Below are positions 10,898 through 55,947 of a stretch of DNA of 59,624 nt, piece by piece. Every line of letters starts with the position of its first letter. Positions within the stretch are counted from its first letter, which is position 1. A program made the position numbers and the translations under genes. The stretch spans positions 1-59,624 of the forward strand of contig JAPLNA010000230.1 of the NCBI GenBank assembly GCA_026693065.1. Direction: 5' to 3'. The stretch comes from Planctomycetota bacterium. Its GTDB lineage: Bacteria > Planctomycetota > Phycisphaerae > SM23-33. The notes under the pieces are model-generated. The model was not told where the DNA came from, did not search any database, and saw nothing but the letters and a program-made list of their open reading frames with translations.

Positions 10898-10988
10898 GGA
10901 ACTGGGAACTGGGAACTGGGAACTGAGATCTGAAATCCAAAATCTGAGATCTGAGATCTGAGAACCCGGAATCGGGAATCGCGAACGA
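10898..10988. repeat. Heptameric degenerate tandem array (13 units)
   Basis: Starting eight bases after the GH130 stop, thirteen contiguous 7-base units can be read: GGAACTG four times, then AGATCTG-type units, then GGAATCG-type units. The period of seven is kept although the unit sequence drifts. AGATCT makes parts of it self-complementary. The remaining bases up to the next gene show nothing else recognisable. Confidence 0.7.
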
Positions 10989-11245
10989 ACCGCATCTGTC
11001 GGACTGCTCGCTTCAGCGAGGCAGTTCCCCGTCGTATCGACCCCCGCGGAGCGACACGTAGAAGATAGGGAAACGTTTTGTCGATGTCCGGAACCGCGAT
11101 AGAATCATCGAAACGGCCCACGATGGTCGTGGTCGCAAGGCCATCTGGGAGACCCTTGCTAAAGGGCGGGATCTTTCGCGAAAGGCGGTGGCATACGCCC
11201 TCGGCTAGAGACCTGCTCGAACGCGGACGGCTTTCGGAGCAGCCA

Positions 11246-12109
11246 ATGGGAGTTAGCGTCTGGAGCGACCATGAGTTGCCCGCCGCGTTGGCGTGGGGCA
11301 TGTCCAGCGATGACCCCAAAGTGTGGTGGGACGCCTACCGGTCTCTTGTGGCACTGGAGGTGGAATGCCCCGCGGGATATACGCCGTCGTGGCGAACGTC
11401 ACTGGATGAGGCCGAAACGATCTGTAGAGCGGTATTCCGCAAACCGACAACCCTCAAGAGCCCGTATGCCGATTCGCCCTTTGGATCCGTAGACCTTTGG
11501 CCCCACCGTTTCATCTTTCTCACGGCCATGCCTTATGGGTCGGAACTGGCGTATCGTCTTCGAAAAGACGTCGCCGCCCTCGCCGAAGGCCCCCATGATG
11601 AGAAACTCCGTGTCCTGGCCATCAATACCTTAGATGGCCTGGGCTGGAGGGGGCGAGACTGTCTTCCGGCGCTCCAGAAGGCCGCCGCCGATACGAACGG
11701 GTGGGTGGCTTCACAAGCAAAGGATGCGATCCGTAACATTACGGCTTCGAAGCCATCGCCCTCGACGGACGCAGAGGAAGGCCCGCTCGAACTGCTCGAC
11801 CGGCACCTGGGCAATCTCAACGGCAATGAAAAGGAGCAGTTCTTGCGTGCGATCGGCAAGCAGGGCGTCCTCCAGACCGTCAGAGACCTGCAATACCCGA
11901 GTATCGTATGGTATGCCTATGTTGGCGCGTGCGGCCCCTATCACACCCCCCAGGGCCCCATGACCGACGCTGAATACCTTAAGTACGTCGAACAAACCTG
12001 CAGGATCACGGAAAGGCTCCGCGGGATAGCAGGCAACACGAGCCCCGTCATCCAGGCCAAGCCCGAGAGCAGGCCCCGGCCGCAGAACTCGCCCGTCCCC
12101 TCGCCATAA
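11246..12109 (+). CDS. Hypothetical protein with a HEAT-like repeat
   Basis: A 287-residue protein I do not recognise. The ATG at 11246 has GGAG about seven bases upstream; an in-frame ATG at 11078 exists but the extra 56 residues are Arg-rich and look non-coding. A helical pair at about residues 125-165 (LRVLAINTLDGLG..., ...WVASQAKDAIRNI) resembles a HEAT repeat. No signal peptide or membrane helix; the C-terminus is Pro-rich and disordered. Its base composition is clearly lower in GC than the GH130 and CstB-like neighbours, hinting at separate origin. It stands alone, flanked by long non-coding stretches. Confidence 0.55.
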   Translation: MGVSVWSDHELPAALAWGMSSDDPKVWWDAYRSLVALEVECPAGYTPSWRTSLDEAETICRAVFRKPTTLKSPYADSPFGSVDLWPHRFIFLTAMPYGSELAYRLRKDVAALAEGPHDEKLRVLAINTLDGLGWRGRDCLPALQKAAADTNGWVASQAKDAIRNITASKPSPSTDAEEGPLELLDRHLGNLNGNEKEQFLRAIGKQGVLQTVRDLQYPSIVWYAYVGACGPYHTPQGPMTDAEYLKYVEQTCRITERLRGIAGNTSPVIQAKPESRPRPQNSPVPSP

Positions 12110-12251
12110 CCCCGCCGGTGAAAGCGGCAACCCAGCAAAGGGATCGGGGGAGGATCGTGGGACGCAAGACTTGACTCGGGCTTCTGGCGGGGGGATTCGC
12201 TACTAGGGTCCGGTCGTCCAACTACCTCCCCACATTTCCCCCGGAATCCCC

Positions 12252-12280
12252 TTGACTGGACACCTGGTAGTTCGTATACT
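12252..12280 (+). promoter_or_regulatory. Strong sigma-70-type promoter
   Basis: TTGACT (12252-12257) and TATACT (12275-12280) are separated by exactly 17 bases, the best promoter in the window. Transcription would start near 12287, far from any coding start in that direction (the next gene begins at 12960), so it either makes a long leader or a small RNA. Confidence 0.6.
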
Positions 12281-12293
12281 GTTAGGGTGACAG

Positions 12294-12327
12294 CCGGCGT
12301 CTCGCTGAGGATGCGCCGGGGGTTTTT
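12294..12327 (+). terminator. Rho-independent terminator or attenuator directly after promoter
   Basis: CCGGCG (12294-12299) pairs with CGCCGG (12314-12319), with an inner CTC/GAG pairing, and is followed by GGG and TTTTT (12323-12327). It lies only a few bases after the predicted transcription start, so transcripts could end prematurely here. The rest of the gap to 12960 holds the repeats listed separately and no supported gene. Confidence 0.45.
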
Positions 12328-12397
12328 GGCCCAGAGCGCCCAGGCGGCGGGATTGGGCGGAAGGAACGGACGGTCGGGGGCCGGAGAGGAATTGCTG

Positions 12398-12477
12398 CGC
12401 CGAAGGCGGACCGATTTTCAATTGAAGAGAGAGCAGGCGTGCCGACGGAATTGCTTGTCAATTTCCCGCCTTCGGCG
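12398..12477. repeat. Inverted repeat with GCCGAAGG core
   Basis: CGCCGAAGGCGG (12398-12409) is exactly complementary to CCGCCTTCGGCG (12466-12477), with 56 bases between. Each arm is preceded by a GGAATTGCT segment (near 12389 and 12450). The left arm closely resembles the hairpin at 20513-20551 (ATTGCTCCGCCGAAGG), so it belongs to a small dispersed family. It could also end the transcript from the 12252 promoter. Confidence 0.5.
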
Positions 12478-12481
12478 GGCC

Positions 12482-12569
12482 AAGTATCCCTTAAGTATCC
12501 CTTGAGTATCCCTTAAGTATCCCTTGAGTATCCTTTAAGTATCCCTTGAGTATCCCTTGAGTATCCCGG
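12482..12569. repeat. Tandem array of eight 11-bp units
   Basis: Eight contiguous copies of RAGTATCCCTT alternate between AAG and GAG beginnings, with a single internal change in one copy and a changed ending in the last. The 11-base period is close to one helical turn, so each unit would present the same DNA face. The array lies between a strong promoter and the CstB-like gene. No coding frame through it is credible. Confidence 0.85.
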
Positions 12570-12959
12570 AAGCATCCTCTTTTCGGGGGGTTCGAGGGGG
12601 CGAGAAAACGGCAACGGTCTGATGGGACAAGGGTTACGGATCGGGAAGGGGAAACGATACGCGTTCGAGGGATGCTTGGGAGGACGGGCGCGGGCGGATG
12701 AGGGGGGCATCGGGGGGATTCACCCCGGCAGTCGGGGTGCCTTTGTCGAGGGGGGCGCAAGATCGGTGGTTTGCGCGGAGGGGTGGATGGAGGAGGGAAA
12801 CCTCCCCCCCGCGGACGCGGGGGAGTGGGAAAATCGTGCGGGGGGCGGGATTCCGGAGGCAGGGGACGCATAGGATGGGATGATCGGCGCCAGGCCGGAC
12901 GCGGAAATGTGGCGGCGCCGGCTGGGAAGCGGACAGACGAGTGAGAAGGAGAAAGAAGC

Positions 12960-14342
12960 ATGTTTTTTCGACAGTTCAAGGTTGAAGGGCTGGGGTGCTA
13001 TTCGTATCTGATCGGATGCCCGGCGGCGGCCGTCGCGTGCGTGGTCGATCCGGAACGGCACGTGGGGCAGTATCTGGAGGCCGCCCAGGCCAACGGGATG
13101 CAGATCACCGACGTGATCGATACGCATCTGCACGCCGACCACATCACGGGCAGCGCGGAGTTGGCGGCCCGGACGGGGGCGACGGTGCACGTGCACCCGG
13201 GCGTGCAGGCGGCGTATCCGCACAAGCCCCTGAAGGACGGCCAGCGGCTGCGGTTCGGCACGGCGGAGCTCGAGGTGATCGAGACCCCCGGGCACACCCC
13301 CAATTCCGTCTCGCTGGCGCTGACCGACCACGCCCGCTCGGGGGACGTCATGGCGATCCTCACGGGCGACCTGTTATTCGTGGGCGAGATCGGGCGGCCG
13401 GACCTGGCCGGGGCGGACCTGCTCGAGCAGCAGGTGCAGAACCTGTACGACAGCCTGTACAAGAAACTCGCCCGGTTCCCGGACTGGACGGAGGTGTACC
13501 CGGCGCACGGCGAGGGTTCGCTGTGCGGGCGGGGCATGAGCGCCAAGCCGATGACCACGCTGGGATTCGAACGCCGACACAACCCGCTGCTCAAGGCCAT
13601 GCCGTTCGAGGATTTCCGCAGCGTGATGACGGGCGGGTTCCAAATGCGTCCGCCGAACTTCGCGGCGATCGTGGAGACCAATCGCCGCGGGCCCGCCCTG
13701 CTGAGCCAGGGGCCCGCCTTCACCGCCCTCTCGACGGGGGAGGTGGAACTGGCGGTGCGGAACGGCGCTCGGCTGGTGGACGTTCGGCCCCAGACGGCCT
13801 TCGGGGCGGCTTTCGTGCCCGGGGCCATCAACATCGGCGGGGCGCCCAGCTCCGTCAACTGGCTGGGGATGGTGGTGGAGTCGCGGTCGGACATCATCAT
13901 CGTGGCCGACAGCGAAGCCCTCGCCCGCAAGGCCGCCCTCCGCTTCCGCCGGGCCGGGTACGACCGGCTGATCGGGTTCCTCCCCGACGGCGTGGCCGGG
14001 TGGGCCAGCCGGGGCAAGCCGCTGGACCACCTGCCCCAACTGACCCCCGCGGGCCTGAAGCACGTGCTGGAGAAATACTCCGACCACGTGGTGCTGGACG
14101 TGCGGACGACCCCCGAGTGGCAGGCCGGGCACATCGAGGGCGCCGTGCACAAACCGCTCTCCGACCTGATCGCCGGCGAGTTGGACGTGGACAAGGACAC
14201 CCACGTCACCGCCGTCTGCGGGTCGGGCTACCGCTCGAACATCGCGGGCAGCGTGCTGAAGTCGCGGGGGTACGCCCAGGTATTCAGCCTGATCGGCGGC
14301 ATGACGGCCTGGAACGCCTTCCGCCGCACCGGCGGGGCGTGA
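12960..14342 (+). CDS. CstB-like persulfide dioxygenase / sulfurtransferase
   Basis: A 460-residue three-domain protein. Residues 1-220 are a metallo-beta-lactamase fold of the persulfide dioxygenase type, with THLHADH at 55-61 and further metal ligands in ETPGHTPNS and VYPAHGEG. Residues about 255-350 form a rhodanese-like domain without catalytic Cys (IIIVADSE where the loop would be). Residues about 365-460 form a rhodanese with the active loop CGSGYRS (Cys420). This order matches CstB of Staphylococcus, which oxidises low-molecular-weight persulfides to thiosulfate, so a role in sulfide detoxification is inferred. Cytoplasmic. AAGGAG lies just upstream of the ATG. It stands alone behind an 850-base non-coding stretch. 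Confidence 0.85.
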   Translation: MFFRQFKVEGLGCYSYLIGCPAAAVACVVDPERHVGQYLEAAQANGMQITDVIDTHLHADHITGSAELAARTGATVHVHPGVQAAYPHKPLKDGQRLRFGTAELEVIETPGHTPNSVSLALTDHARSGDVMAILTGDLLFVGEIGRPDLAGADLLEQQVQNLYDSLYKKLARFPDWTEVYPAHGEGSLCGRGMSAKPMTTLGFERRHNPLLKAMPFEDFRSVMTGGFQMRPPNFAAIVETNRRGPALLSQGPAFTALSTGEVELAVRNGARLVDVRPQTAFGAAFVPGAINIGGAPSSVNWLGMVVESRSDIIIVADSEALARKAALRFRRAGYDRLIGFLPDGVAGWASRGKPLDHLPQLTPAGLKHVLEKYSDHVVLDVRTTPEWQAGHIEGAVHKPLSDLIAGELDVDKDTHVTAVCGSGYRSNIAGSVLKSRGYAQVFSLIGGMTAWNAFRRTGGA

Positions 14343-14465
14343 GGGAAAGCGCCTGTCGCACTGGCCCCGGCTTGACCGTCGCGGCGGCCGCTTCGATAAT
14401 GTGGGCGCTCACGGTCGGTGAGGCGCGGGACGGCGCAAGAACAACTGCAAGCGGAAGGCAAAGCC

Positions 14466-15308
14466 ATGATCTATCTGGGCGGGCCGGTGTTTGTCGAACA
14501 CGATGATCCGGAACTGCTGGCCAAGGCGCACCGGCAGGAAGGCTATCGGGCGGCGTACTGTCCGCCGGCTGAGCCGGGCGACACGGCACGGATCGCCGCG
14601 ATTCGCCGGGCGTTCGAGGTCGAGGGCGTGGTGATCGCCGAGGTGGGCGCCTGGTGCAACATGATTCACCCGGACCCGGTCCAGCGAAAGACCAACCAGG
14701 ACTACGTGCGGAAGCAGTTGACGCTGGCGGAGGAGGTCGGCGCCCGGTGCTGCCCGAACTTCCTGGGAACGCTGGACCCCGACTCGGCCTACGGGCCCCA
14801 TCCGGGCAATCTGACGGCCGCGACGTTCGACCTGGCCGTCGAGACCATCCGATCGATCGTCGACGCGGTCAAGCCGCGGCGGACGCGGTTCGCGTTGGAG
14901 ATGATGCAGTGGGTCCTGCCCGACAGCGTGGAGGTATACCTGGAGCTGATCCGGGCGGTGGACCGCCCCGCGTTCGGGGTACACCTGGACCCGGTGAACC
15001 TGATCCTGACGCCGCGGATGTATTACGACACCGCGTCGCTGCTGCGCGACTGTTTCCACCGGCTGGGCTCGTGGATCGCCTCCTGCCACGCCAAGGACAT
15101 CACCCTCCGCGGCGCGTTGGCCCTGCACCTGGACGAGGTTCCCCCGGGCCTGGGCAACCTGGACTACCGGACGTACTTGTCGGAGCTGGACCGCCTGAGC
15201 GGCTCGCCGCCGCTGATGCTCGAGCACCTTTCGACGGCGGAGGAATACCGGGCCGCCGCCGGCCGCCTCCGCGCCATCGCGGGCGGGCTGGGCATCGACA
15301 TGAAATGA
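14466..15308 (+). CDS. Sugar phosphate isomerase/epimerase-like TIM barrel
   Basis: A 280-residue member of the xylose-isomerase-like TIM barrel superfamily. Metal-binding residues expected at the strand ends are visible: Glu in FALEMMQW, His and Asp in FGVHLDPVN, His in ASCHAKDI and Glu near LMLEHL. Such proteins isomerise or epimerise ketoses, or act on inositol derivatives; the substrate cannot be named. The ATG at 14466 is preferred over the upstream in-frame ATG (14418) because the barrel begins at once (IYLGGPVFV) and GGAAGG lies upstream. About 120 bases separate it from the CstB-like gene on the same strand. No signal peptide; cytoplasmic. Confidence 0.75.
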   Translation: MIYLGGPVFVEHDDPELLAKAHRQEGYRAAYCPPAEPGDTARIAAIRRAFEVEGVVIAEVGAWCNMIHPDPVQRKTNQDYVRKQLTLAEEVGARCCPNFLGTLDPDSAYGPHPGNLTAATFDLAVETIRSIVDAVKPRRTRFALEMMQWVLPDSVEVYLELIRAVDRPAFGVHLDPVNLILTPRMYYDTASLLRDCFHRLGSWIASCHAKDITLRGALALHLDEVPPGLGNLDYRTYLSELDRLSGSPPLMLEHLSTAEEYRAAAGRLRAIAGGLGIDMK

Positions 15309-15343
15309 ACCGAAGCCGGTTCTGGCCCCTCGTTCTCGCTGGA

Positions 15344-15898
15344 CTATCGGAAGATATTCGATCGAAGCCCGTCGCGGAGGCTGCGCCCGTGGCGGTCGAA
15401 CTGGGCCCGCTGGATCAGCAGCCAGACCAGGAACGCCACCCACAGGAACACGGCCACCGCGATGACGACGCCCAGGGAAATGCTGCGGACCTTCTCGAGG
15501 ACACGGCTGGTGGGAATGGTGATGATGGGGCTCTGGCAGACGCCCCAGCCGGCGAGGACGGCCCCGAGGGCGGCGGTGCCGGCCTGGCAGAACGCGGAGA
15601 TCCACGCCCAGGAGATGCTCATCTTCTGACGCGAGCACGCCGCCACCAGGAACAGCGATACCACCAGCCAGGCCAGACCCACCAGGTCGATGAGGATGCC
15701 GTAATCGACAAACACCATGCGGACGGCCTGCGTCAGGTGCGGCATGGGCAGGTCGTCCTTGATGACGTAGGTGAGCATGTGGCTGACCGTGCTCCGCGCA
15801 ATGCCGGCCACCAGCGCCCAGACCAGATACGCCACGCCGGCAAACGCCAGCGCTAACCCGACATCCACACGGCTGACTCGTTGCAGTCGTCCAAGCAT
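15344..15898 (-). CDS. Small four-helix membrane protein, unknown function
   Basis: A 184-residue hydrophobic protein with four probable membrane segments (about 14-34, 66-88, 96-118, 138-160) and a basic C-terminus that should face the cytoplasm. No motif recognised. It is transcribed away from the TIGR03790 gene and towards the isomerase-like gene, from which its stop is 36 bases away. A TGTAAT box ends only six bases before the ATG, so the message may be leaderless. Confidence 0.6.
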   Translation of the reverse strand: MLGRLQRVSRVDVGLALAFAGVAYLVWALVAGIARSTVSHMLTYVIKDDLPMPHLTQAVRMVFVDYGILIDLVGLAWLVVSLFLVAACSRQKMSISWAWISAFCQAGTAALGAVLAGWGVCQSPIITIPTSRVLEKVRSISLGVVIAVAVFLWVAFLVWLLIQRAQFDRHGRSLRDGLRSNIFR

Positions 15899-15904
15899 GA
15901 CCCC

Positions 15905-15910
15905 ATTACA
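15905..15910 (-). promoter_or_regulatory. Putative -10 box abutting the start codon
   Basis: TGTAAT on the minus strand lies six bases before the ATG of the small membrane protein, which would place transcription start at or next to the start codon. The same geometry is seen at the ECF sigma and pyruvate kinase genes. Confidence 0.35.
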
Positions 15911-15946
15911 CCAATTTCCCCCGGCCAGGTCAAAGCAAACTCCCGG

Positions 15947-15964
15947 GCCGCTTGCGGCTTCGCG
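15947..15964. repeat. 18-bp hairpin repeat, copy 1
   Basis: GCCGCTTGCGGCTTCGCG is found here and, in reverse orientation, at 44739-44756. It contains a short palindrome (CCGC/GCGG). Both copies are intergenic. It may be a dispersed terminator-like element. Confidence 0.45.
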
Positions 15965-16096
15965 GCGTCACCCGTGCGTCCCACTCTCGTCTCGAACCTC
16001 TAACCTTTTCCCGCGTGGCGCTCGTATAAGATGAATGCGGGCGATTATCTGCCAACGACGCCGCCCTGCCGTTCCGATAAAGACACTGGAACCACT

Positions 16097-17848
16097 ATGA
16101 ACCGAACTCTCGCTCGTCTCCGTCGAAGCGGGCCGGCGCTGCTCCTGCTGGCCGTCTGCTCGCCCGCATGGTCCCTCACGCCCGCGGAAGTCCTCGTCGT
16201 GGCCAATCGCAAGCTGCCCGAGTCCGTCGAGCTGGCCAAGCTTTACATGCAGCTTCGCCACCTGCCGCCCGAGAACGTGGCCCTTCTCGACATGCCCACC
16301 ACCTACGAGATCGGCCGGGCGGATTACGAAAAGGACATCCGCGTCCCGATCGGTCGCTTCCTTCAGGAGCGCCAGCTCGACAAACAGATCCGCTGCCTCG
16401 TGCTGATGTGGGGCGTGCCGGTCCGGGTGATGGAAGGAGAAGACCTCCGCCAGAAGGAGGCGGTCTACCAGTCCGCCGTCAAAGACTCCCTCGCCCGCAT
16501 CGTCATGCTCCGCGCGTTGGTGGAGAAAGTGGGTTCCCTGCCGCCCAAACAACCGGACCTTCTTCTGCCGCCGGAGGGACAGTTCCCGCCCGTGCCCCCG
16601 CCGGCCGAGCCGACGCTGGCGCCCGACAAACTCAAGGACCAACTGGCCGACCTCATCGCCGCCAGGCAGGTCGAGGTGGCGCGGATCGCCGACCCGGGGA
16701 AGAAGCGGGCGTTCTCCCGCCAGGTGATGGCCCTGACGCTGGAGGGGTACGGGCTCAGCGGGCTGATCCGCTACCTCACCAGCGACTCCCCGCCCGACGC
16801 CCCGCCGGTCGAGCCCCTTCGCAAGCAACTGGCGGACATCGAGGCGAAGATCCAGCTTCTCCGCGGCGAGGAACTCTCCGCCACGGGCCTGAAGAAGAAG
16901 ATCGACCTCCTCCGCGCCTCCGACGGCGTGGTTCACCTGCACGGCTACGCCGAGCAATACGCCAACCGCCCGGCCGCCGCCGTCATCACCGACCCGGTCA
17001 AGACTCCCAACGCCGCCGTGGACAGCGAGCTGAGCCTGCTGTGGTGGGGGGCGTATCCGGTCGAGGGGTGGATGATCAACCCGCTCCACTGGACGTTCGC
17101 CGAGAAGCTCGAAGCCCGCCCGCACCCGCCGGTGCTGATGACCTCGCGTCTGGACGGCCCGACGCCCGCCCTGGCCGCCCGGATGCTCCGGGACAGCGTC
17201 GCCGTCGAGCGGAGCGGCCTGACCGGCACGTTCTACATCGACGCCGGCGGGCCCGCGCGACTCGGCAACGCCGCCGCCGCCATGGACAACCGCCTCAAGC
17301 AACTGGCCGCCCTGGCCCGCGACAACACGCGCGTCCGCGTCGTCCTGGACACCTCGCCGCAGGTCTTCGCCCCCGGCGCCTGCCCCGACGCGGCCTTGTA
17401 CGTCGGCTGGTACAGTCTGCGGAAGTACGTCCCCGCCTTCACCTGGGCCAGGGGGGCCGTCGGGTATCACATCGCCAGCTTCGAAGCCGTCGCCCTCCGG
17501 GCCGCCGACTCGCCCGAATGGTGCCCGCAGATGATCTCCACCGGCGTGGCCGCCACGATCGGGCCCGTGGCCGAGCCCTTCCTCGGGGCCTTCCCTTTGC
17601 CCGAGGAGTTCTTCTCCCTCCTGCTCACCGGGCACTACACCCTCGCCGAGTGCTACTGGCGGACCGTCCCCCAGGCAAGCTGGCAGATGATCCTCTTGGG
17701 CGACGGGCTCTACAACCCCTTCGCCGCCAACCCCCAGCTCGACCCGCGCGTCCTCCCGCCCGGGCTGGCGCCCCGCGTATCGGCCTCCCGCCCGGCCTCC
17801 CACCCCGCTTCCTCCGCAATTTCCTCGCGACCGGCAGGCCCCCGTTGA
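16097..17848 (+). CDS. TIGR03790 family secreted protein
   Basis: A 583-residue exported protein. Signal peptide: RLRRSGPALLLLAVCSPAWS after the ATG at 16097. The mature start LTPAEVLVVANRKLPES and the region with IRCLVLMWGVPVRV are the hallmarks of the TIGR03790 family, described as occurring sporadically and only in genomes carrying exosortase, with no known activity. An insert of about 130 charged residues (about 150-280) interrupts the family core, and the C-terminus is a Ser/Pro/Ala-rich tail. An in-frame ATG at 16031 is rejected because it directly abuts a TATAAG box (16025-16030) that more likely serves as the promoter. Expected location: periplasm or cell surface. Confidence 0.75.
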   Translation: MNRTLARLRRSGPALLLLAVCSPAWSLTPAEVLVVANRKLPESVELAKLYMQLRHLPPENVALLDMPTTYEIGRADYEKDIRVPIGRFLQERQLDKQIRCLVLMWGVPVRVMEGEDLRQKEAVYQSAVKDSLARIVMLRALVEKVGSLPPKQPDLLLPPEGQFPPVPPPAEPTLAPDKLKDQLADLIAARQVEVARIADPGKKRAFSRQVMALTLEGYGLSGLIRYLTSDSPPDAPPVEPLRKQLADIEAKIQLLRGEELSATGLKKKIDLLRASDGVVHLHGYAEQYANRPAAAVITDPVKTPNAAVDSELSLLWWGAYPVEGWMINPLHWTFAEKLEARPHPPVLMTSRLDGPTPALAARMLRDSVAVERSGLTGTFYIDAGGPARLGNAAAAMDNRLKQLAALARDNTRVRVVLDTSPQVFAPGACPDAALYVGWYSLRKYVPAFTWARGAVGYHIASFEAVALRAADSPEWCPQMISTGVAATIGPVAEPFLGAFPLPEEFFSLLLTGHYTLAECYWRTVPQASWQMILLGDGLYNPFAANPQLDPRVLPPGLAPRVSASRPASHPASSAISSRPAGPR

Positions 17849-17973
17849 CTTTATAACCCCCCGAACCCGCTTGCCCTTTGGGCGACGCATGGATACCATT
17901 CACCCTCGTGTCGGCCGGCGGTCTCGTACCCCCGTGACCCCCCATGACCGCCCGCGCCCAGAAGGAGATTGCG

Positions 17974-18885: not shown

Positions 18886-18927
18886 CGCCCCTGACGCCCA
18901 CCCGCCGCAATCGATACCCCTGCCCCG

Positions 18928-19012
18928 GGTGCCATGCTTCTACGCGCTGCGGAGAAGCATGCGGGCCGATCGCGGGACATGCTTCTCCGCTGCGCGTAGA
19001 AGCATGGCACCC
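18928..19012. repeat. Long near-perfect inverted repeat
   Basis: A 34-base arm beginning GGTGCCATGCTTCTACGC (18928-18961) is complementary to 18979-19012 with one mismatch, around a loop of about 17 bases. Each arm is itself partly palindromic (CATGCTTCT ... AGAAGCATG), so either one long stem or two small hairpins can form. It lies between convergent genes (stop at 18885 and stop at 19040), compatible with bidirectional termination or a mobile palindromic element. Confidence 0.85.
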
Positions 19013-28764: not shown

Positions 28765-28792
28765 AGTAGCCGGTAGCCAGTAGCCGGTAGCC
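28765..28792. repeat. Heptameric array, four units
   Basis: Four contiguous 7-base units alternate AGTAGCC and GGTAGCC, shortly after the pyk stop. No inverted partner is seen nearby. The 387-base gap 28729-29115 otherwise holds one possible small gene. Confidence 0.65.
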
Positions 28793-28831
28793 GGGGGAAC
28801 CGCGAACCGCCCTCGGAGAATGTGGGTCTTC

Positions 28832-36882: not shown

Positions 36883-36900
36883 AGAGAACGGGACAAAGGT

Positions 36901-37051
36901 CCACGGATTACGCGGATTGCACGGATTGAGAAGAAGAAACAAGCGGACGAGCCGTCCATGAATGGCACGAACGTCACGCATGGGAAACGAGAAATGGAGA
37001 ACCGCTTCTGCTTTCCCTCTTTTCAATCCGTGGAATCCGAGTAATCTGTGG
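36901..37051. repeat. Nonameric inverted-repeat element
   Basis: The left arm reads three 9-base units ending in GGATT (CCACGGATT, ACGCGGATT, GCACGGATT). The right arm (37022-37051) is its imperfect reverse complement with the same 9-base period. About 90 bases separate the arms. It fills the gap between mtfA and cysM. Confidence 0.75.
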
Positions 37052-37095
37052 ATGATGCGTTTCCCCCGCCATCCCGGCGGCATACGAGGTAATCG

Positions 37096-38011: not shown

Positions 38012-38088
38012 GAGAAACGGGCTGTGCGTGCGTTCGTTTCTTCTGCCCGTTCTCGTTTCGTTCCGTGCAATCCGTGTAATCCGTGGAC
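38012..38088. repeat. Inverted repeat with nonamer-like right arm
   Basis: GAGAAACGGGC (38012-38022) is nearly complementary to GCCCGTTCTC (38045-38054). Just after follow units of the GGATT family on the other strand (GCAATCCGT, GTAATCCGT at about 38066-38084). It appears to be a shortened relative of the element at 36901-37051. Confidence 0.5.
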
Positions 38089-38132
38089 AGAACTTCTTCG
38101 CCATCCGCGCGGCGTGGCCGTCGAGCTTGGCG

Positions 38133-46720: not shown

Positions 46721-46893
46721 CAAATCCGAAATTCGAAGCACGAAATCCGAAACAAATCCAAAACGGAAAAACTCAAATGTCCAAAACACCGGAAGGAATC
46801 CCTGCGCCGGCGGATGTCCTTGTGTAGTTTCGGATTTCGGTCATTTGAGTTTGGGTATTGTTTCGAGTTTCGGATTTCGTGCTTCGGATTTGG
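46721..46893. repeat. Heptameric long inverted-repeat element
   Basis: A left arm of about 58 bases starting CAAATCCGAAATTCGAAGC is the imperfect reverse complement of the right arm 46842-46893. Both arms are built of 7-base units (GAAATTC, GAAGCAC, GAAATCC; TTTCGAG, TTTCGGA, TTTCGTG). About 60 bases lie between. It occupies the entire gap between tadA and the ribulokinase gene and is AT-rich against its surroundings. Confidence 0.85.
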
Positions 46894-48658: not shown

Positions 48659-48846
48659 GGGGGAACCACGAAGGACACGAAGACCACGAAGGACACAAAG
48701 GACAGCAAGACGGAAAGAGAAGGGCCGGGAGAACGGAAGAAGGAGCAAGCACCTCGGGTGAGTCGAAAGCCTTTGCGGCTCTTTGTTCTATTTCCCGCTG
48801 CTCTTTGTGCTCTTTGTGTTCTTTGTGTTCTTCGTGGTTCCCCCCA
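48659..48846. repeat. Nonameric (CACGAAG) long inverted-repeat element, copy 1
   Basis: The left arm carries 9-base units CCACGAAGG, ACACGAAGA, CCACGAAGG, ACACAAAGG (from about 48665). The right arm (to 48846) is its reverse complement with drift, both ending in a shared GGGGGAACCACGAAG terminus. About 90 bases of unrelated sequence lie between. It fills most of the 393-base gap between divergent araB and GH4 genes. A second copy is at 52887. Confidence 0.85.
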
Positions 48847-48981
48847 CGTCGCATGGCCGCGGATCACGACCACCGCGAGAGGGCGAATGGGCTTGACTTG
48901 AGCGGCGATTGCGGATACCAGCAACGGAACGAAGAAAGCGTCCGGCGGACCGGACGGGCGTATTTCAAGAGGAGTCTGACA

Positions 48982-50529
48982 GTGGCTATCAAAGTGGCGT
49001 TCATCGGGGCCGGCAGCGTGGGGTTCACGCGCGGGCTGTTCCGCGACATACTGGCCGTGCCCGAGTTGAAGGACACGCAGTTCGGTTTCACGGACATCAA
49101 CAAGCGGAACCTGGACATGGTGACCGCCCTGTGCCGGAAGGATATCCGCGAGAACAAGCTGCCGGCGACGATCGACGCGACGACCAATCGCCTCAAGGTC
49201 CTCGAGGGGGCCGACTACGTCATCAACTGCACCCGCATCGGCGGGCTGGAGGCCTTCAAGCTCGATATCGACATTCCGCTCAAGTACGGCGTGGACCAGT
49301 GCGTGGGCGACACGCTGTGCGCCGGCGGGATCATGTACGGCCAGCGGAATATCCCCTGCGTGCTGGATTTCTGCCACGACATCCGCGAGGTCGCCAACGA
49401 GAACGCCCTGTTCCTGAACTACGCCAACCCCAACGCGATGAACACCTGGGCGGCCAATCACTTCGGCGGCGTGCCGACGATCGGGCTCTGCCACGGCGTG
49501 ATGGGCGGGCACTGGCAGATCGCCACGGTGATCGAGTTGCTCGTCAACAAGGGCAAGAAGCCCGGCAGGCCCGGCTACACGAAGGTCTCGACCAGGGACG
49601 TCGACATCATCTGCGCCGGCATCAATCACCAGACGTGGTACGTCCAGGTGATCTACAAGGGCGAAGACTGGTGCGACCGCCTGCTGGAAGGCTTCCAGAA
49701 GCACCCGGAGTATTCGAAGACCGAGAAGGTCCGCATCGACATGCTCAAGCGGTTCGGCTACTACAGCACCGAATCCAACGGGCACCTGTCGGAGTACGTG
49801 CCCTGGTATCGCAAGCGGACGAAGGAGATCAAGAACTGGATCGACCTGGGCTGCTGGATCAACGGCGAGACGGGCGGGTATCTCCGCGTGTGCACGGAGG
49901 GGCGTAACTGGTTCGAGACGGACTTCGACAACTGGCTGAAGGCCGACGTGCCGCCGATCTCGCCCCAGCACCGCGGCGGGGAGCACGGCAGTTACATCAT
50001 CGAGGGGCTCGAGACCGGGAAGGTCTACCGCGGGCACTTCAACGTGCCCAATAACGGGTGCATCACCAACCTGCCCGACGACGCCATCGTCGAAGTGCCC
50101 GGGTACGTCGACCGCAACGGGGTGAGCATCCCGAAGGTGGGCGACCTGCCGTTGGGCTGTGCGGCCGTGTGCAGCGCGTCGATCCACGTGCAGCGGCTGG
50201 CCGTCGAGGCGGCTGTGTACGGCGACGTCGACCTGCTCAAGCAGGCGATGATGATGGACCCCCTCGTCGGGGCCGTCTGCGACCCCAACGAGATCTCCCA
50301 GATGACCGACGAGATGCTCGTCGCCCAGGCCAAGTGGCTGCCGCAGTACCGCGGCGAGATTGCCAAGGCCGCCAAGAGGCTTGCGAGCGAGAAGCGGCTG
50401 GGGACGAAGGGCACGAAGGGCGTGGCGAGGCTGCACACCAAGACGGTGACGGAGATGAAGAAGGACCGGGCGGCGGCCCGGCGAATCGCCGCCGCCTCGG
50501 ACAAGGCGAATCTGGCGAAGAAGAAGTAA
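48982..50529 (+). CDS. GH4 family glycosidase, second copy, with basic tail
   Basis: A 515-residue GH4 enzyme from GTG at 48982, with AAGAGGAG eight bases upstream; no closer ATG exists and the NAD-binding FIGAGSVGFTRGLFRD begins at once. Further motifs: NCTRIGGLEAFKLD, YGVDQCVGDTLCAGG, GLCHGVMGG, CAGINHQTW (metal site) and NGHLSEYVPWYRKR. Related to the gene at 43242 but clearly distinct (longer by 38 residues). The last about 60 residues are a Lys/Ala-rich tail beginning GTKGTKGVAR; its DNA (GGCACGAAGG) resembles the CACGAAG repeat units of the adjacent intergenic element. Substrate unknown; cytoplasmic. Confidence 0.85.
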   Translation: MAIKVAFIGAGSVGFTRGLFRDILAVPELKDTQFGFTDINKRNLDMVTALCRKDIRENKLPATIDATTNRLKVLEGADYVINCTRIGGLEAFKLDIDIPLKYGVDQCVGDTLCAGGIMYGQRNIPCVLDFCHDIREVANENALFLNYANPNAMNTWAANHFGGVPTIGLCHGVMGGHWQIATVIELLVNKGKKPGRPGYTKVSTRDVDIICAGINHQTWYVQVIYKGEDWCDRLLEGFQKHPEYSKTEKVRIDMLKRFGYYSTESNGHLSEYVPWYRKRTKEIKNWIDLGCWINGETGGYLRVCTEGRNWFETDFDNWLKADVPPISPQHRGGEHGSYIIEGLETGKVYRGHFNVPNNGCITNLPDDAIVEVPGYVDRNGVSIPKVGDLPLGCAAVCSASIHVQRLAVEAAVYGDVDLLKQAMMMDPLVGAVCDPNEISQMTDEMLVAQAKWLPQYRGEIAKAAKRLASEKRLGTKGTKGVARLHTKTVTEMKKDRAAARRIAAASDKANLAKKK

Positions 50530-50534
50530 AACCT

Positions 50535-50630
50535 ACCGGTTTACCGATTACCGATTACTGGTTACTGATTACGCGTCACAGTCTGACGATCGCGTAACCC
50601 GTAATCAGTAACCAGTAATTCGTTAACCGA
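50535..50630. repeat. Heptameric inverted-repeat element between convergent genes
   Basis: The left arm has five 7-base units (TTACCGA twice, TTACTGG, TTACTGA, TTACGCG; 50541-50575). The right arm (50591-50630) is the reverse complement with the same period. Only 15 bases separate them. It sits six bases after one stop and eight before the other, and can form a stem of about 40 bp, so it may act as a bidirectional terminator. Confidence 0.85.
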
Positions 50631-50637
50631 TGCTTCT

Positions 50638-51729
50638 TCAGTACGTCCCCATCTCCAGCCCGCGGTCGCGGAAGAAGCGGTAGGTCTTGTAGTCCACGCT
50701 CTGGGGGATGCTGTGGTCGGAGTGCAGGATGTACCCGCCGCCGGCCATCGCGATGGGGAGCTTGGCGTCCAGCTCGGCCTGGACGATCGCCAGGTCGTTG
50801 GTCTCGAGCTTTCGCACGTCCATGCCGCCACAGAAGGAGATGCGGTCGCCGTAGGCTTTCTTGAGCCGCACGAGATCCATGCCGGCCTTGGTTTCGATGG
50901 CCTGAAGGCAGTCCATGCCCGCCTCGATCAGCCCGGGCACGAGGGGCTCGACGAACCCGCAGGAGTGCACCACGATGGGCACGTTGTGACGCTTGGCGAC
51001 GGCGAAGGTCTTCTTGTGGGCCGGCAGGATGAACTCGTTGTACATCGCCGGCGACATGAAGGGGCGTTCCTTGAAGCCCATGTCCTCGTAGAACCACATG
51101 ATGTCCGGCGTGCCGCCCTCGGAGAACATGATCTCGAGGCAGGCGGCGATCATGTCGCCGAAGACGTGGCACATGTCGTGGACCCACTCCGGTTCGGCGA
51201 TCATGCCCATGAGCATGTGCTCGTGCCCGCAGAGCGGGTGCATGCACTCGAATACATTAATGCTCATGCACTTGTAGCATTTGCCGTCGGCCTCGCAGGA
51301 GACCCGGGTGTTCTTGCACCAGTCGACGGTGCTCCGCCGGCGGTACAGCGACGTATCCGCCAGGAACGGCCGGGCGTGCTCCTCCCACGAGCGGCGGTCC
51401 TTGACGGTGAAGTCCACGTGCTCGGGCGTGCCGCTGCGCCCCTTCCACCACCGCAGCTTCGCCCCGTTGCCGTCGAGCACGAGTTTGTGCTCGTCGTTCT
51501 CCTCGATGACCTGGTCTTTCCAGTCCAGGTTGGCCGTGGGGGTGACCCACCCGGCCTCGCGGGCGTCGAGGGCGAAGTGGCGTTCCGGGTCTTCCTCGGC
51601 CCCCAGGTGCCCTTCCTTGCGCCACCGCACGAGCGTGTCGGGCCAGAAGCCCTCGAGCACCCCGATCCGGTCGACGCTCTGGCGGCGGACGATCCGCGGG
51701 ATCCGCTCTTTGCTTGTCATGGCAGCCAT
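50638..51729 (-). CDS. Uroporphyrinogen decarboxylase-superfamily protein
   Basis: A 363-residue TIM-barrel protein of the URO-D superfamily. It has the typical start SKERIPRIVRRQSVDRIGV, the conserved FKERPFMSPAMYNEFILPAHKK and the late VVHSCGFVEPLVP with CGGMDVRKLE. The HSCG and other Cys suggest a metal or methyltransferase-type site as in MtaA/CmuA relatives rather than haem synthesis, where HemE would lack these. ATG at 51729 has GAGGAG six bases upstream. It follows GH172 by 22 bases, so it belongs to the saccharide operon, a pairing whose biochemical sense is unknown. Confidence 0.8.
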   Translation of the reverse strand: MAAMTSKERIPRIVRRQSVDRIGVLEGFWPDTLVRWRKEGHLGAEEDPERHFALDAREAGWVTPTANLDWKDQVIEENDEHKLVLDGNGAKLRWWKGRSGTPEHVDFTVKDRRSWEEHARPFLADTSLYRRRSTVDWCKNTRVSCEADGKCYKCMSINVFECMHPLCGHEHMLMGMIAEPEWVHDMCHVFGDMIAACLEIMFSEGGTPDIMWFYEDMGFKERPFMSPAMYNEFILPAHKKTFAVAKRHNVPIVVHSCGFVEPLVPGLIEAGMDCLQAIETKAGMDLVRLKKAYGDRISFCGGMDVRKLETNDLAIVQAELDAKLPIAMAGGGYILHSDHSIPQSVDYKTYRFFRDRGLEMGTY

Positions 51730-51751
51730 GAATTGCTCCTCGGTAATGAAC

Positions 51752-52846
51752 TCAAACGATTTCCAACGCGTTGCGGTCGCCCAGCGCGGGGAACGGGGCC
51801 GCCGGAAGCGTCTGATACCAGTACGCCACCGAGCACAGGTCGTGCTGCCCGGGGTAGTACCGCCCCTCCGTCCGCCAGCCCAGGGCCTGGATCCGCACGC
51901 GGAGGTCCTTCCCGAACCGCACCGGGTCCATCACGTGCCAGCGGTACATGCCGTGGCGGTGCTGGCTCTGGTACGTGCCGTCGGGGCGGTGGACGTAGTG
52001 CATGCCCATGAAGGCCGTCGAATACTCGACGTACTTGCCGTTGACGTCCCAGTTGTACGAGCCGCCGAAGTAATCCTCCGTGCCCGTGCCGCAGATCGTC
52101 GGGAACTCGCCGTCGCCGTCGATGAAGAACTTGATCTCGCCCTCGCCGAACCAGCCGCTGTTGTTGACCCCCCACCCCATCACCGTGCCGACGTAATGCC
52201 CGCGCCCCTTCACGCCGTCCAGGATCACGTACTCCTGGGCGTACGGCAGCGGATTCACGCGGCGGAACTGGGCGTGGAAGTACGCGCAGTCGTCCGGCAC
52301 GCTCGTGAGGGTGTAGTTGATCTGGTGGAAGCACCCCCCGACGGCCGTCGGGTGGCGGTTCTCGACCGTCACGCGGCAGCTCTTGCGGAAGGGCATCTCC
52401 CAGAAACAGTTCAGCCCCGCGCGGGGGTTGACCGCCACGGGCAGGCTGTTGACGGGACAGTAGGGCCAGCCCATGCACTGCGTCGACCAGGGCATGGCGA
52501 AGAAGTCCGAGATGGGGACCTCGACGGACGGAGCGGCCTGGCCGTCCCAGTAGATCCGCAGGATGAAGTCGCGGCTGACCACGCTGCCGGCGAACCACAT
52601 GCTCTGAATCGCCCCGGGCCCTTCAATGTCCGCCAGTGTCACCGTCTGTCCGGGAGCAACATCGTGACAGGGCCTGCATTTCCAGCCTCGCCCGAGCTCC
52701 CGCGCCGGGCCGTTCGGGTCCGCCGGCGCCATCGCCCCGGCCCCCTTCCCGCCCGTGGGGTTCTCGGCGGAAATGCTCCGCGTCTGGGCGGAGGACAGGC
52801 GCGACAGGTTACCGAGGGACATTCCCAGGCCGTTGAATTCTGACAT
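51752..52846 (-). CDS. GH172 (DUF2961) glycosidase-like protein
   Basis: A 364-residue protein of the DUF2961 family, now GH172, with members acting on alpha-D-fructofuranosyl and D-arabinofuranosyl linkages. Start FNGLGMSLGNLSRL, MWFAGSVVSRDFILRIYWDG, EVPISDFFAMPW and the central GEGEIKFFIDGDGEFPTICGTGTEDYFGG region are characteristic; glutamates in GEGEIKF and GTGTEDYF are the likely catalytic pair. No signal peptide is seen, so it would act inside the cell on imported oligosaccharides. GGAG lies before the ATG. Followed by the UroD-like gene, preceded by GH116 across a repeat element. Confidence 0.85.
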   Translation of the reverse strand: MSEFNGLGMSLGNLSRLSSAQTRSISAENPTGGKGAGAMAPADPNGPARELGRGWKCRPCHDVAPGQTVTLADIEGPGAIQSMWFAGSVVSRDFILRIYWDGQAAPSVEVPISDFFAMPWSTQCMGWPYCPVNSLPVAVNPRAGLNCFWEMPFRKSCRVTVENRHPTAVGGCFHQINYTLTSVPDDCAYFHAQFRRVNPLPYAQEYVILDGVKGRGHYVGTVMGWGVNNSGWFGEGEIKFFIDGDGEFPTICGTGTEDYFGGSYNWDVNGKYVEYSTAFMGMHYVHRPDGTYQSQHRHGMYRWHVMDPVRFGKDLRVRIQALGWRTEGRYYPGQHDLCSVAYWYQTLPAAPFPALGDRNALEIV

Positions 52847-52886
52847 CGTCGTGACTCCAAAGGAGTGTTATAGGTTAGGGGCGGCA

Positions 52887-53069
52887 AGGGGAACCACGAA
52901 GCACACAAAGGTCACGAAGATCACAAAGGGCGGAAGAAGAGGGACGAGAAGGCATCGCGGCCGAAACAGCAAAGCGCCCGGGCGGTGTCTTTCTTCCATT
53001 CCTCATCATTCTCTTCTTTTCTTTCCGTCCTTCGTGTTCTTCGTGATCTTTGTGTGCTTCGTGGTTCCC
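52887..53069. repeat. Nonameric (CACGAAG) long inverted-repeat element, copy 2
   Basis: Left arm units CCACGAAGC, ACACAAAGG, TCACGAAGA, TCACAAAGG; the right arm (about 53030-53069) matches its reverse complement in nearly all of 39 positions. Arms begin and end with the same GGGAACCACGAAG terminus as the element at 48659, but the interior differs. It occupies the gap between GH116 and GH172. Confidence 0.85.
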
Positions 53070-53092
53070 TGGCCGCCGGATTCCAAAAAGCC

Positions 53093-55642
53093 CTATTTCT
53101 TGACAGTCACCGTCAGACTCTTGCCCGCGGGAATCGTCTTGAGGTCACCGAGGCACTTGCAGCCGACGCCGGCCAGCTCGAAGCAGCCCAGGGCCACCTG
53201 CCCGCCCAGGACGGCGAGCTTGGCGGTGAAGCCGCCCTTGGCCTTGGCGATGGTGCACGTGCCCCACGCGTAGCCGTTGGACCAGAAGTGCTCGCCCGGC
53301 ACGGCGGCGAAGGACATGCTCTTGTCCACGCCGGAATACCGGAAGCCCGTCAGGGTCGGAATCGCCGCCCAGGCCGCCATCGCGCGGGCGTAGTGGTGCC
53401 CGCACTCGGCCTCGTTGAACGGGTTCCGCCGCCAGCCGTCGTACCGGTCGCGGATATTGCGAATGCACTCGAGCCCGGCGGCGGTCTGCCCTTCCTGCAA
53501 CATGCCGATCGCCGCGGCGTACTCGAAGCCCGTCATCACCTCGGTGAAGTACGGGAACGGGTTCCGCGGGCGGTCCTTGGGGTAGGCCGCCATCAGCAGG
53601 GCCTTCTCCTGGCCCACCACGAAACTCCGCATGCAGTTGAAGTGCCCCGTGAAGTCCGTCCGGTAGTTGTACTTCATGATCGCCTTGTACGTCTTGGCGA
53701 CGTTCTCGGGTTTGACGAGATAGCCCAGCCCGGCCACGTGGGCCAGGTACTGCCCCACGAGCTGATCGACCAAACACGCGGCCCCGAGCTGGTAGTCGGC
53801 GTTCTTCGGGTCGCCGGGGGTCCATTTGCCCAGCGCCAGCCCGGGAGCGATCTCCCCGGCCGGGGCCTGGATCTTGTGCTCGTAGAACTCGCCGTTGAAG
53901 AGGTTCTCGTCGAGCCACTTACTGCCCCGCTCGAAGAGCCCGCGGCAGGTGGCGGCGAATTCGGCGTCGCCCATGGCCTTGGCCATTTCCTCGCCTGCCC
54001 GCAACGCGCCCAGATACCACACGCCCATCTGCCCGTTCGGGCCGTAGTATTCCACATCCATCGTGTTGTGCTGGCAGCCTTCCATCACGCCGTCCTGGTC
54101 GGCGTCCCACCCGCCGGGCACCCAGCAGAAGGCCAGGGCCTTCTTCACGTTGGGCCAGAGCCGCTCCAGCGTCGCCGTGTCGCCCGAGAGCTGCCAATCG
54201 CGGTACATCTTGATCAGGCAGCCCATCTGCCCGTCCGCGGCGGCGAGTTGGCTCTCCTTGGCGCGGTCGAGGGGCAGTTTCGCGCGGAAGCTCATGTACC
54301 CGTTCTCGTGCGTGGCATAGGCGAACTCGACGTCGCGCATGCTCATCGCCAGGTCGCCGAACAGGAACGCGGCCGTGTTCTCGTAGTTCCATACGTGGGT
54401 GCACGAACCCTCGCAGCACCCGCACGTGTCGCCGCAGCCCTCCCAGCCGAACAGGTGGCCGTCAGGCGTGCGGAAGCAGGTCTGCGTCCTCAGCGTGGAC
54501 AGGTTGGCCAGGGCGGCGTCCTTGACCTCCAGGGGCAGCTTGGCGTCGCAGACCGCCCGGACGAACTGGACGGTGCGGGCCTCCAGGGCCGGAAGCTCGC
54601 CCGCGACCCGCTCGGCCACCGCCCAGGCGTCGGCATACTGCGTGCAGTAGTGGTTACCGATCCAGTCGCTGGGCTCCAGGCAGGTCTTCTTGGTGTCGCC
54701 GCAGCAATTCTCCTTCGTCCGGGGCCACCAGTTGTAGCGGTTGGGGAAGTGCCACGTGATCAGGAACGTGACTTCCTTGACGGCCTTGGGGGGCAGTTTG
54801 ATCTCGACGGCCAGCGAGGCCACGGGCAGCTTCTGGCCCGGTGCGGCGGTGCGGGGTTCGAGCCTGCCGTCGGCGCTGAAGTCGTCCCAGAAGTCCAGAG
54901 CGCTCGTGCCCCACCCCGCCGGCAGCCAGGCCGTCCGATGCGTCAGGGCGCCCCTGGTGGTCGTCGTCAGGGCCATCGTGCCCCAGGCCGGCGTGGTCTG
55001 GTCGGCCGCCGCCGACGTCATGGAAATGCCGCGAACGGCCGCGCCCTCGCGGTAGGCGTTGGCGTTGCCCTCGACCATCGAGTGTGTGCCGTCGGACCCG
55101 ATGAAGTTGGGCATCACGCCGCACACCGACGCCGTCACGGGCTTGTTCGTGCGGTTGGTGACGACGTACCGGAGAATCGCCACCGGGATGCTGCTGACGG
55201 CGGCGTCGGTCGGAACGAGCGGGTTGAATGCCTGCAACGTGACGGAGACGGGCATGGCCGGGTCGCTCAGGAACACCTGCCCCAGCGGATACGCGGCGGC
55301 AAAGGAACACTTGGCGAACCGCGGCAGGCCGTGGTTGGGCACCGGGCAGCCGTTGTCGCCGTAGTCGGCGGTGTCGATGGGGCCCATGAGCGCCCTGGTG
55401 ACGGCCTCGCCGCCGGCGGGCTTGGCGTAGATGGCAAAGAACGCCGCGTGCACGCCGTCGCCGCCGGGCGTGAAACCCTTGGCCGGTCGGTTGGCGATTT
55501 CCCAGTCCCTGAAATGGCCCAGCCCGCCCAGGCTCACCGTCCCGGTCCCGATCCCGCCCAGGGGCAGCGCCAGCCGCCGCAGGTGCGCCTGGTCGTATCG
55601 CTTCAGTATCGGCCATTCGTTCCGCTTGTTCGTTTTCGCCAT
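53093..55642 (-). CDS. GH116 family glycosidase
   Basis: An 849-residue protein of family GH116 (beta-glucosidase, beta-xylosidase, glucosylceramidase-type retaining enzymes). The N-terminal beta-sandwich starts at LPLGGIGTGTVSLGG; the (alpha/alpha)6 barrel holds CTHVWNYENTAAFLFGDL, whose Glu421 is in the nucleophile position, and GCQHNTMDVEYYGPNGQM, whose Asp529 is in the acid/base position. Length matches the family. No signal peptide; probably cytoplasmic. ATG at 55642 chosen with AAGGA nine bases upstream; the longer frame runs into repeats. First gene of the GH116-GH172-UroD series. Confidence 0.9.
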   Translation of the reverse strand: MAKTNKRNEWPILKRYDQAHLRRLALPLGGIGTGTVSLGGLGHFRDWEIANRPAKGFTPGGDGVHAAFFAIYAKPAGGEAVTRALMGPIDTADYGDNGCPVPNHGLPRFAKCSFAAAYPLGQVFLSDPAMPVSVTLQAFNPLVPTDAAVSSIPVAILRYVVTNRTNKPVTASVCGVMPNFIGSDGTHSMVEGNANAYREGAAVRGISMTSAAADQTTPAWGTMALTTTTRGALTHRTAWLPAGWGTSALDFWDDFSADGRLEPRTAAPGQKLPVASLAVEIKLPPKAVKEVTFLITWHFPNRYNWWPRTKENCCGDTKKTCLEPSDWIGNHYCTQYADAWAVAERVAGELPALEARTVQFVRAVCDAKLPLEVKDAALANLSTLRTQTCFRTPDGHLFGWEGCGDTCGCCEGSCTHVWNYENTAAFLFGDLAMSMRDVEFAYATHENGYMSFRAKLPLDRAKESQLAAADGQMGCLIKMYRDWQLSGDTATLERLWPNVKKALAFCWVPGGWDADQDGVMEGCQHNTMDVEYYGPNGQMGVWYLGALRAGEEMAKAMGDAEFAATCRGLFERGSKWLDENLFNGEFYEHKIQAPAGEIAPGLALGKWTPGDPKNADYQLGAACLVDQLVGQYLAHVAGLGYLVKPENVAKTYKAIMKYNYRTDFTGHFNCMRSFVVGQEKALLMAAYPKDRPRNPFPYFTEVMTGFEYAAAIGMLQEGQTAAGLECIRNIRDRYDGWRRNPFNEAECGHHYARAMAAWAAIPTLTGFRYSGVDKSMSFAAVPGEHFWSNGYAWGTCTIAKAKGGFTAKLAVLGGQVALGCFELAGVGCKCLGDLKTIPAGKSLTVTVKK

Positions 55643-55779
55643 GGCTGTCCGTTCCTTTTCTCGCGGGGGTTTCTCTGTGCGACAGAAGCACCTTTCATAC
55701 CTTTTCGCGTGCAAATGTCCATGGAATTCCCGCCCCGCGCCCATGGTCGGAAAGCGGGCCGGTGGCGGCTGGGCGAGTG

Positions 55780-55947
55780 AGACTGGGATTAGGGGATTCA
55801 AAGGGATGGGAGGACAAAGAGATTGGGAGAGAAACACCCGGGATACAGAATCTCAGATCCAAGATCTCAGATCCGAGATTCCAGAAGACCTCTCCCAATC
55901 CATTTATCCTAATCCCCCAATCCAGAAATCCCCTAATCCCCGTCTCT
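55780..55947. repeat. Long inverted-repeat element with heptameric centre
   Basis: Left arm GAGACTGGGATTAGGGGATT (from 55780) pairs imperfectly with the right arm ending CCCCTAATCCCCGTCTC (to 55947), and GATTGGGAGAG pairs with CTCTCCCAATC. The centre contains 7-base units ATCTCAG, ATCCAAG, ATCTCAG, ATCCGAG, ATTCCAG. It lies between the divergent GH116 and nfeD genes; nothing else is recognised in this 412-base gap. Confidence 0.8.

Follow-up and report, generated by a model that had tools for sequence, protein, structure and literature searches.

In a 59,624-nt stretch of a Planctomycetota genome (hereafter the window), gaps between genes hold arrays of short, imperfectly repeated words, several of them facing each other as long inverted repeats, which raises the question of what these loci are and how they arose. 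Based on their anatomy, their relatives in the same genome and the genes that such arms enclose, we consider it probable (roughly 0.6) that the loci in the window belong, as MITE-like copies without a gene, to two related kinds of small selfish hairpin elements, akin to the intervening sequences (IVSs) of 23S rRNA.

A preliminary description of the window had listed eight main loci and three relatives. According to TRF and inverted-repeat searches, six of the eight, i.e. 36900, 46721, 48659, 50541, 52889 and 55779, are true inverted repeats with arm periods of 7, 8 or 9 (Table 1), while those at 10898 and 28766 are direct arrays only and fold no better than shuffled sequence (z -1.5 for 10898-10990 and -0.3 for 28766-28794). 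As for the relatives, that at 38062 is a single arm belonging to the 36900 family, and those at 12482 and 18927 fall outside the class. The RNA folds of four inverted loci have z values from -7.1 to -8.7, i.e. -7.1 at 55779, -7.5 at 50541, -7.8 at 36900 (inverted repeat of 40 nt, 85 %) and -8.7 at 48659 (69 nt, 74 %); for the truncated sequence of 46721, whose inverted arms measure 49 nt (73 %; inner 25 nt, 96 %), z is -2.6. A search of the window for known RNA families in Rfam gave no match. The neighbours of the window loci are ordinary metabolic genes, e.g. those for an FGGY kinase, GH4, URO-D family, DUF2961, GH116, an M90 peptidase and PALP, and the 50541 element occupies most of a 109-bp gap with convergent genes on either side. 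Arrays like that at 10898 occur at around a dozen other places in the genome, the heptamer stretch nested at 55850-55885 resembles 10923-10963, and one gene-bearing element of the same genome (L012, described below as IVP-bearing) has GAGATTT arms.

Table 1. Repeat features of the window, with their class and the words of which they are built
Feature	Position	Strand	Words and remarks
Direct heptamer arrays	10898..10990	none	three words end to end (GGGAACT, GAGATCT, CGGGAAT); no inverted partner
11/22-base direct array	12482..12567	none	AAGTATCCCTT; outside the class; fold z -0.45
Near-perfect hairpin	18927..19012	none	non-periodic; outside the class; like hairpins at L025 16159 and L053 12804
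Direct heptamer array	28766..28794	none	GTAGCCG; no inverted partner; fold z -0.26
Gene-less element, GxxExxY class	36900..37052	none	arms CACGGATTA-CGCGGATTG-CACGGATTG; period 9
Lone arm, 36900 family	38062..38090	none	TCCGTGCAATCCGTGTAATCCGTGGA; period 9 in TRF
Gene-less element, heptamer (IVP) class	46721..46892	none	AAATCCG AAATTCG AAGCACG AAATCCG; period 7
Gene-less element, GxxExxY class	48659..48844	none	arms (CACGAAG+2)n, outer GGGGGAACC; spacer ~90 nt; period 9
Gene-less element, heptamer (IVP) class	50541..50619	none	TTACCGA/TTACTGG; period 7
Gene-less element, GxxExxY class	52889..53069	none	arms (CACRAAG+2)n, 47 nt, 91 % complementary; period 9
Gene-less element, GxxExxY class by arms	55779..55946	none	GAGACTGGGATTAGGGGATT...AATCCCCTAATCCCCGTCTC; period 7-9 mixed
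Heptamer stretch nested inside the 55779 element	55850..55885	none	AGATCYV; TRF period 14, consensus ATCTCAGATCCAAG

Other repeats lie among these loci. The eleven-base array at 12482-12567 alternates AAGTATCCCTT with GAGTATCCCTT, giving a 22-base unit, and the hairpins at 18927-19012, L025 16159 and L053 12804 form a dispersed REP-like family (GGGTGCC...GGCACCC), distinct from the elements reported here. Two more dispersed repeats, of which the genome holds many partial copies, are found at 10968-11027 and 11078-11163, one of them containing the hairpin CTGCTCGCTTCAGCGAGGCAG, and non-periodic inverted repeats with a common CGGCGGGGACAC end (L046 13851 and L053 5765) make up another dispersed family.

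Chance and coding periodicity as an origin were ruled out by comparison with shuffled sequence: in the 0.589 Mb of the same genome that was sampled, 26 inverted repeats scored at least 20, compared with none in a Markov shuffle. These collapse to 22 loci, nearly all intergenic, 11-12 of which are periodic depending on the cut-off. On the same sampled stretches, period-7 arrays reach 17 per Mb, against 0 after shuffling and around 1.7 for periods 5 and 13. The preliminary description, which had proposed an intergenic architecture recurring with divergent units and a scan for its enrichment over shuffled sequence, is borne out on both counts. Its AT-richness, on the other hand, exists only relative to a host of ~63-67 % GC and is not intrinsic to the elements.

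Two GxxExxY and three 23S_rRNA_IVP (IVP) genes were found in this genome, and all five have periodic arms of the window type, the right side of L010 being lost at a contig end. In L009, the ACCACGAAGGACACAAAGG arms around a GxxExxY gene can be aligned with 48659 and 52889, two loci that also align with each other; in L010, the arm beside the GxxExxY gene hardly differs from the arms of 55779 and from those of L046 and L047, two gene-less copies elsewhere. These matches to L009 and L010 make the window loci look like counterparts of gene-bearing elements that lack the gene. No gene-bearing copy with arms identical to 36900, 46721 or 50541 was found in the same genome; the words of 36900 belong to the class of two GxxExxY-bearing loci of the same phylum (L112 and L105). 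The units fall into two gene-linked classes, and the earlier view that no single transposon had been copied is right. The IVP proteins form a four-helix-bundle family that matches 2GSC, i.e. XCC0516 of Xanthomonas campestris, in a PDB search (E 8e-27). GxxExxY proteins, which are PD-(D/E)XK nuclease-like, match Pfam PDDEXK_3, with conserved D, ExK and QxxxY-like residues, and had no match in the PDB. Viral contigs gave few matches to either family (2 GxxExxY, 10 IVP).

The association between gene and arms extends far beyond this genome. Among 119 genomes of the same phylum, IVP was found in 58 and GxxExxY in 55, and both together in 41, against 26.8 expected (p 1.8e-7). Considering the 30 best loci of each gene, a flanking inverted repeat scoring at least 17 was present at 25 IVP and 26 GxxExxY loci and at none of 30 ribosomal L21 genes from this phylum; these matched L21 pairs are the usable control, since the mismatched L21 null is inflated by conserved operons that were left unoriented. 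Mismatched pairs of IVP flanks from the phylum never scored above 15. On a wider scale, 66 of 80 IVP loci scored at least 15, with arms of period 7 and a few of 8, in a set that is biased towards one IVP subfamily and its best matches, because 18 diverse IVP proteins were too divergent to serve as a search alignment and a subset was used. The set spans more than 12 phyla and includes Cyanobacteria, Alphaproteobacteria, Bacteroidota, Acidobacteria, Chloroflexota, Nitrospirota, Desulfobacterota, Clostridia and Patescibacteria. Mismatched flanks reached 15 in 53 of 397 pairs of this set, and 17 in 13 of 232 GxxExxY pairs, because different elements have words in common. At 12 IVP loci with a weak or absent flanking repeat, rRNA was looked for and none was found. 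Flanking heptamer arms likewise accompany IVP loci on cyanobacterial plasmids. On two such plasmids (L194 and L196), IVP lies between cas6 and cas4, both times with heptamer arms, which makes CRISPR operons look like places of insertion; the presence of IVP within cas operons has been reported (PMC3936711) and would be explained as insertions if the link between gene and arms holds.

The words themselves follow rules. IVP arms of the same phylum are mostly plain heptamers; the IVP-linked class reads inward as GG(C/G)A(A/G)T plus a variable last base, in agreement with the GGGANTN published for Xanthomonas (PMC4692102). The GxxExxY-linked class consists of CRCRRAK words at a spacing of 8, 9 or 10, at least two of which were present in 21/28 GxxExxY arms vs 1/25 IVP arms. 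The inward strand is purine-rich at 61 of 63 IVP loci outside the phylum, 23 of 28 GxxExxY loci and 10 of the 11 periodic repeats of the genome studied here, 50541 being the sole exception in that sample; for the IVP arms of the same phylum the polarity is not significant (16/25, p 0.23). The unit, said at the outset to differ from locus to locus, is indeed divergent but not arbitrary, i.e. there are two classes that have words and, for the most part, a purine-rich polarity in common. Arm units did not co-vary measurably with protein sequence (Mantel r 0.10, p 0.10; across phyla p 0.30), which argues against tight matching of arm and protein. That the inward purine-rich polarity on both sides arises because a telomere-like, template-copying reaction adds the words at either end of a break is a highly improbable sub-case of the broadest reading given below.

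Occupied and unoccupied sites can be compared between close relatives. Among three congeneric genomes, one (G095) has an IVP element between groES and groEL where the gap in the others (G002 and G034) measures 66 bp; between groEL and dnaJ, G034 and G095 carry a GxxExxY element that G002 lacks. At least five gene-less copies in G095 carry the arms of its IVP element. In Mesorhizobium, six species share an IVP element at one site, flanked by an acyl-CoA-dehydrogenase-like gene and a second dehydrogenase-like gene (read from their translated ends); at that site, the genes of M. sangaii are 27 bp apart, and a further relative has a short hairpin that looks decayed. Two Mesorhizobium species carry a gene-less copy that a third one lacks. 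No target-site duplication was visible in the groES-groEL-dnaJ and Mesorhizobium comparisons, where the element replaces the spacer rather than interrupting it. Judged from these alignments, the presence or absence among congeners could reflect either gain or loss of the element.

From these data, the following life cycle may be proposed. A full element of ~400-700 bp consists of two inverted arms of iterated words that enclose a single small gene, IVP or GxxExxY; the words have 7 bases in one class and a 7-base core plus 1-3 linker bases in the other. Such elements would settle in intergenic gaps, often within operons and just past a stop codon, where they would be read through with the host genes, and the transcript would fold into a long hairpin. 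RNase III, which has been shown to remove the intervening sequences of rRNA, can probably remove this hairpin from the transcript, by analogy. The encoded IVP or GxxExxY protein would act on the arms, recognising them as cruciform DNA or hairpin RNA, and would promote copying into new gaps. Gene-less copies would spread in trans, arms grow and shrink by slippage, and decay of the elements would leave lone heptamer arrays.

An alternative that we regard as unlikely is that the arms are host regulatory modules, i.e. processing or terminator hairpins (RNase III sites, mRNA stabilizers), with IVP and GxxExxY as domesticated binders, and that they spread by ordinary recombination and inheritance rather than through any mobility of their own. 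IVP is under strong purifying selection (dN/dS 0.06 over 15 pairs), and the protein therefore matters to the element or to the host; the constancy of the element at one site in six Mesorhizobium species would fit a gene of use to the host as well. Likewise, IVP is co-directional with the upstream gene in a ratio of 47:9 and with the downstream gene of 38:10, the RNA folds are strong, and some G095 copies have terminator-like hairpins between their arms. However, the neighbouring genes have no common theme, congeners differ in presence and absence, the families are dispersed with genome-specific units, and position is not conserved between phyla.

A purely mutational origin, in which heptamers arise by slippage and are inverted by recombination while IVP and GxxExxY are there by coincidence or because such gaps tolerate insertion, is quite improbable. 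The 'slippage plus inversion' suggested earlier is right as far as slippage goes, since heptamer copy number differs between the arms of Mesorhizobium orthologues, and lone direct arrays do exist (10898, 28766 and most of those in Moorena bouillonii, which has 36 period-7 arrays in 80 kb). The units, however, follow rules, words and polarity are conserved across phyla, and the flanking arms described above accompany most IVP and GxxExxY genes and none of the controls. In 400-kb stretches each, sampled non-randomly from drafts or samples of genomes, period-7 arrays numbered 7 (17.5/Mb) where IVP and GxxExxY are plentiful vs 0 where both are lacking, these being small counts, and periodic inverted repeats 6 vs 1. 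Furthermore, the array units of four cyanobacteria were found in the IVP arms of their own genome in 19 of 42 cases, compared with 11 of 168 for the arms of other genomes. No period-7 array was found in 80 kb of Calothrix PCC 7103, in which the sampled IVP genes are mostly without periodic arms. On the other hand, cyanobacterial arrays mostly lack a close inverted partner (4/36 have one), a point against the hairpin elements proposed above.

Arm-less IVP copies, found in G079, G013 and Calothrix PCC 7103, indicate that the gene can also travel otherwise or be domesticated. In the first two genomes (L144-L154 and L155-L157), with 13 and 21 IVP-like matches, the copies examined have no arms and belong to a divergent subfamily. 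Near-identical IVP copies in Calothrix PCC 7103 (L358, L364, L368 and L374) share ~1.2-1.7 kb of identical sequence without heptamer arms. They were considered as markers of element boundaries and set aside, as the identity, in which arms are absent, reaches ~650-1140 bp on the upstream side and 575 bp on the downstream side; based on these arm-less blocks of identity, IVP is there probably the cargo of a larger element.

Retro-elements, in which IVP, like the Avd protein of diversity-generating retroelements (DGRs), would partner a reverse transcriptase copying the hairpin RNA, are very improbable. IVP proteins weakly match Pfam bAvd (E 1e-8 to 2e-3), homology of Avd and PF05635 has been reported (PMC10053308), and insertions are transcript-sense and operon-internal. 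Yet the presence of reverse transcriptase shows no significant association with IVP (37 genomes vs 32.2 expected, p 0.10), and the complete G095 and near-complete G034 genomes carry elements with no detected RVT_1. A reverse transcriptase gene was seen directly beside GxxExxY in one genome (G049:C21:9152-10266) and beside IVP in another (G037:C2:10721-11840). As an obligate partner, reverse transcriptase is unsupported, with neither it nor a Y1 transposase detected in 12 element-gene genomes. Least probable of all is a REP/RAYT-type system moved by Y1 (HUH) transposases, since, despite the association of Y1 with IVP (p 0.004) and GxxExxY (p 6e-5) and the 7 Y1 matches of the genome studied here, the arms are periodic long stems unlike short REP hairpins, and no Y1 was detected in 18 of the 72 genomes with element genes, among them the near-complete G034 (2 contigs; one IVP, three GxxExxY), which contradicts RAYT as an obligate partner. 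Neither RAYT nor reverse transcriptase is required. The preliminary description had recommended looking for a linked transposase or RAYT gene; a linked gene does exist, but it is not RAYT.

The link between gene and arms suggests a source for the seven-base repeats scattered through many bacterial genomes. Heptamers GGGANTN in Xanthomonas, of which 186 have been published, and GGGGAYT in Nostoc have been described, with 70 and 75 convergent inverted pairs in two xanthomonads (PMC4692102), which the preliminary description leaves out. That study found no general association with mobile elements (PMC4692102), no mechanism was evident to the authors describing TAACTGA repeats (PMC4679880), and heptanucleotide elements are also described from Geobacter (PMC2700814); in this open-licence literature on heptamer repeats (PMC4692102, PMC4679880 and PMC2700814) we found no link to IVP or GxxExxY. 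It is tempting to go further and see here a new kind of mobile element, whose hairpin arms iterate words of 7-10 bases and which owes its spread to one or the other of two unrelated small proteins (Avd-like IVP or PD-(D/E)XK-like GxxExxY), with the 23S rRNA IVSs as a special case and the heptamer repeats (STRR and kin) of many phyla as its remains, a generalization to which we give somewhat less than even odds. Three puzzles, i.e. the roles of 'S23'/IVP, the roles of GxxExxY and the origin of heptamer repeats in cyanobacteria, xanthomonads and others, may be one. Should the link hold, the presence of such repeats in a genome, and their unit, could be predicted from it, and Mesorhizobium and Nostoc offer culturable hosts for direct tests of mobility.

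Among known systems, DGRs share with these elements a distant homologue, Avd, of IVP, but reverse transcriptase is dispensable here at the genome level, being undetected in the element-carrying G034 and G095. REP/RAYT systems (REPtrons) are similar in that intergenic palindromes go with a small gene found at scattered places; they differ in the length of the stem, in periodicity and in the partner gene, and a linked Y1 gene is not a constant companion here (none detected in 18 genomes). The window loci resemble MITEs in being short and gene-less with inverted ends, and in that dispersed intergenic copies share their ends with a gene-bearing copy of the same genome (L010/L046/L047/55779; L009/48659/52889; G095). 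Unlike MITEs, they end in iterated words that vary in length, no duplication of the target can be seen and the partner genes are not known transposases. The heptamer class, and only this one, resembles the repeats of Xanthomonas, Nostoc and the cyanobacterial STRR in its period of 7, its often G-rich word with the same conserved positions, its intergenic location and its genome-specific unit. Closest to the gene-bearing elements of the heptamer class are the 23S IVSs, found with an S23p/IVP ORF in Coxiella, Leptospira and others, sporadically distributed and called selfish elements; the Coxiella IVS has an S23p ORF, 28-bp inverted ends and, on the 5' side of the ORF, GACAGAT heptamers of strain-variable number (PMC4990558). 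Both have an IVP ORF between terminal inverted repeats that form a stable long stem. In contrast to the 23S IVSs, the site is a gap between protein genes and not a 23S (or 16S) helix, consistent with the lack of an Rfam match in the window, the arms are heptamer arrays throughout, many gene-less copies occur per genome, and a parallel class carries GxxExxY. Because the rRNA location that defines an IVS is missing, we do not file the elements as IVSs but describe them as an intergenic variant with a second, GxxExxY-bearing class.
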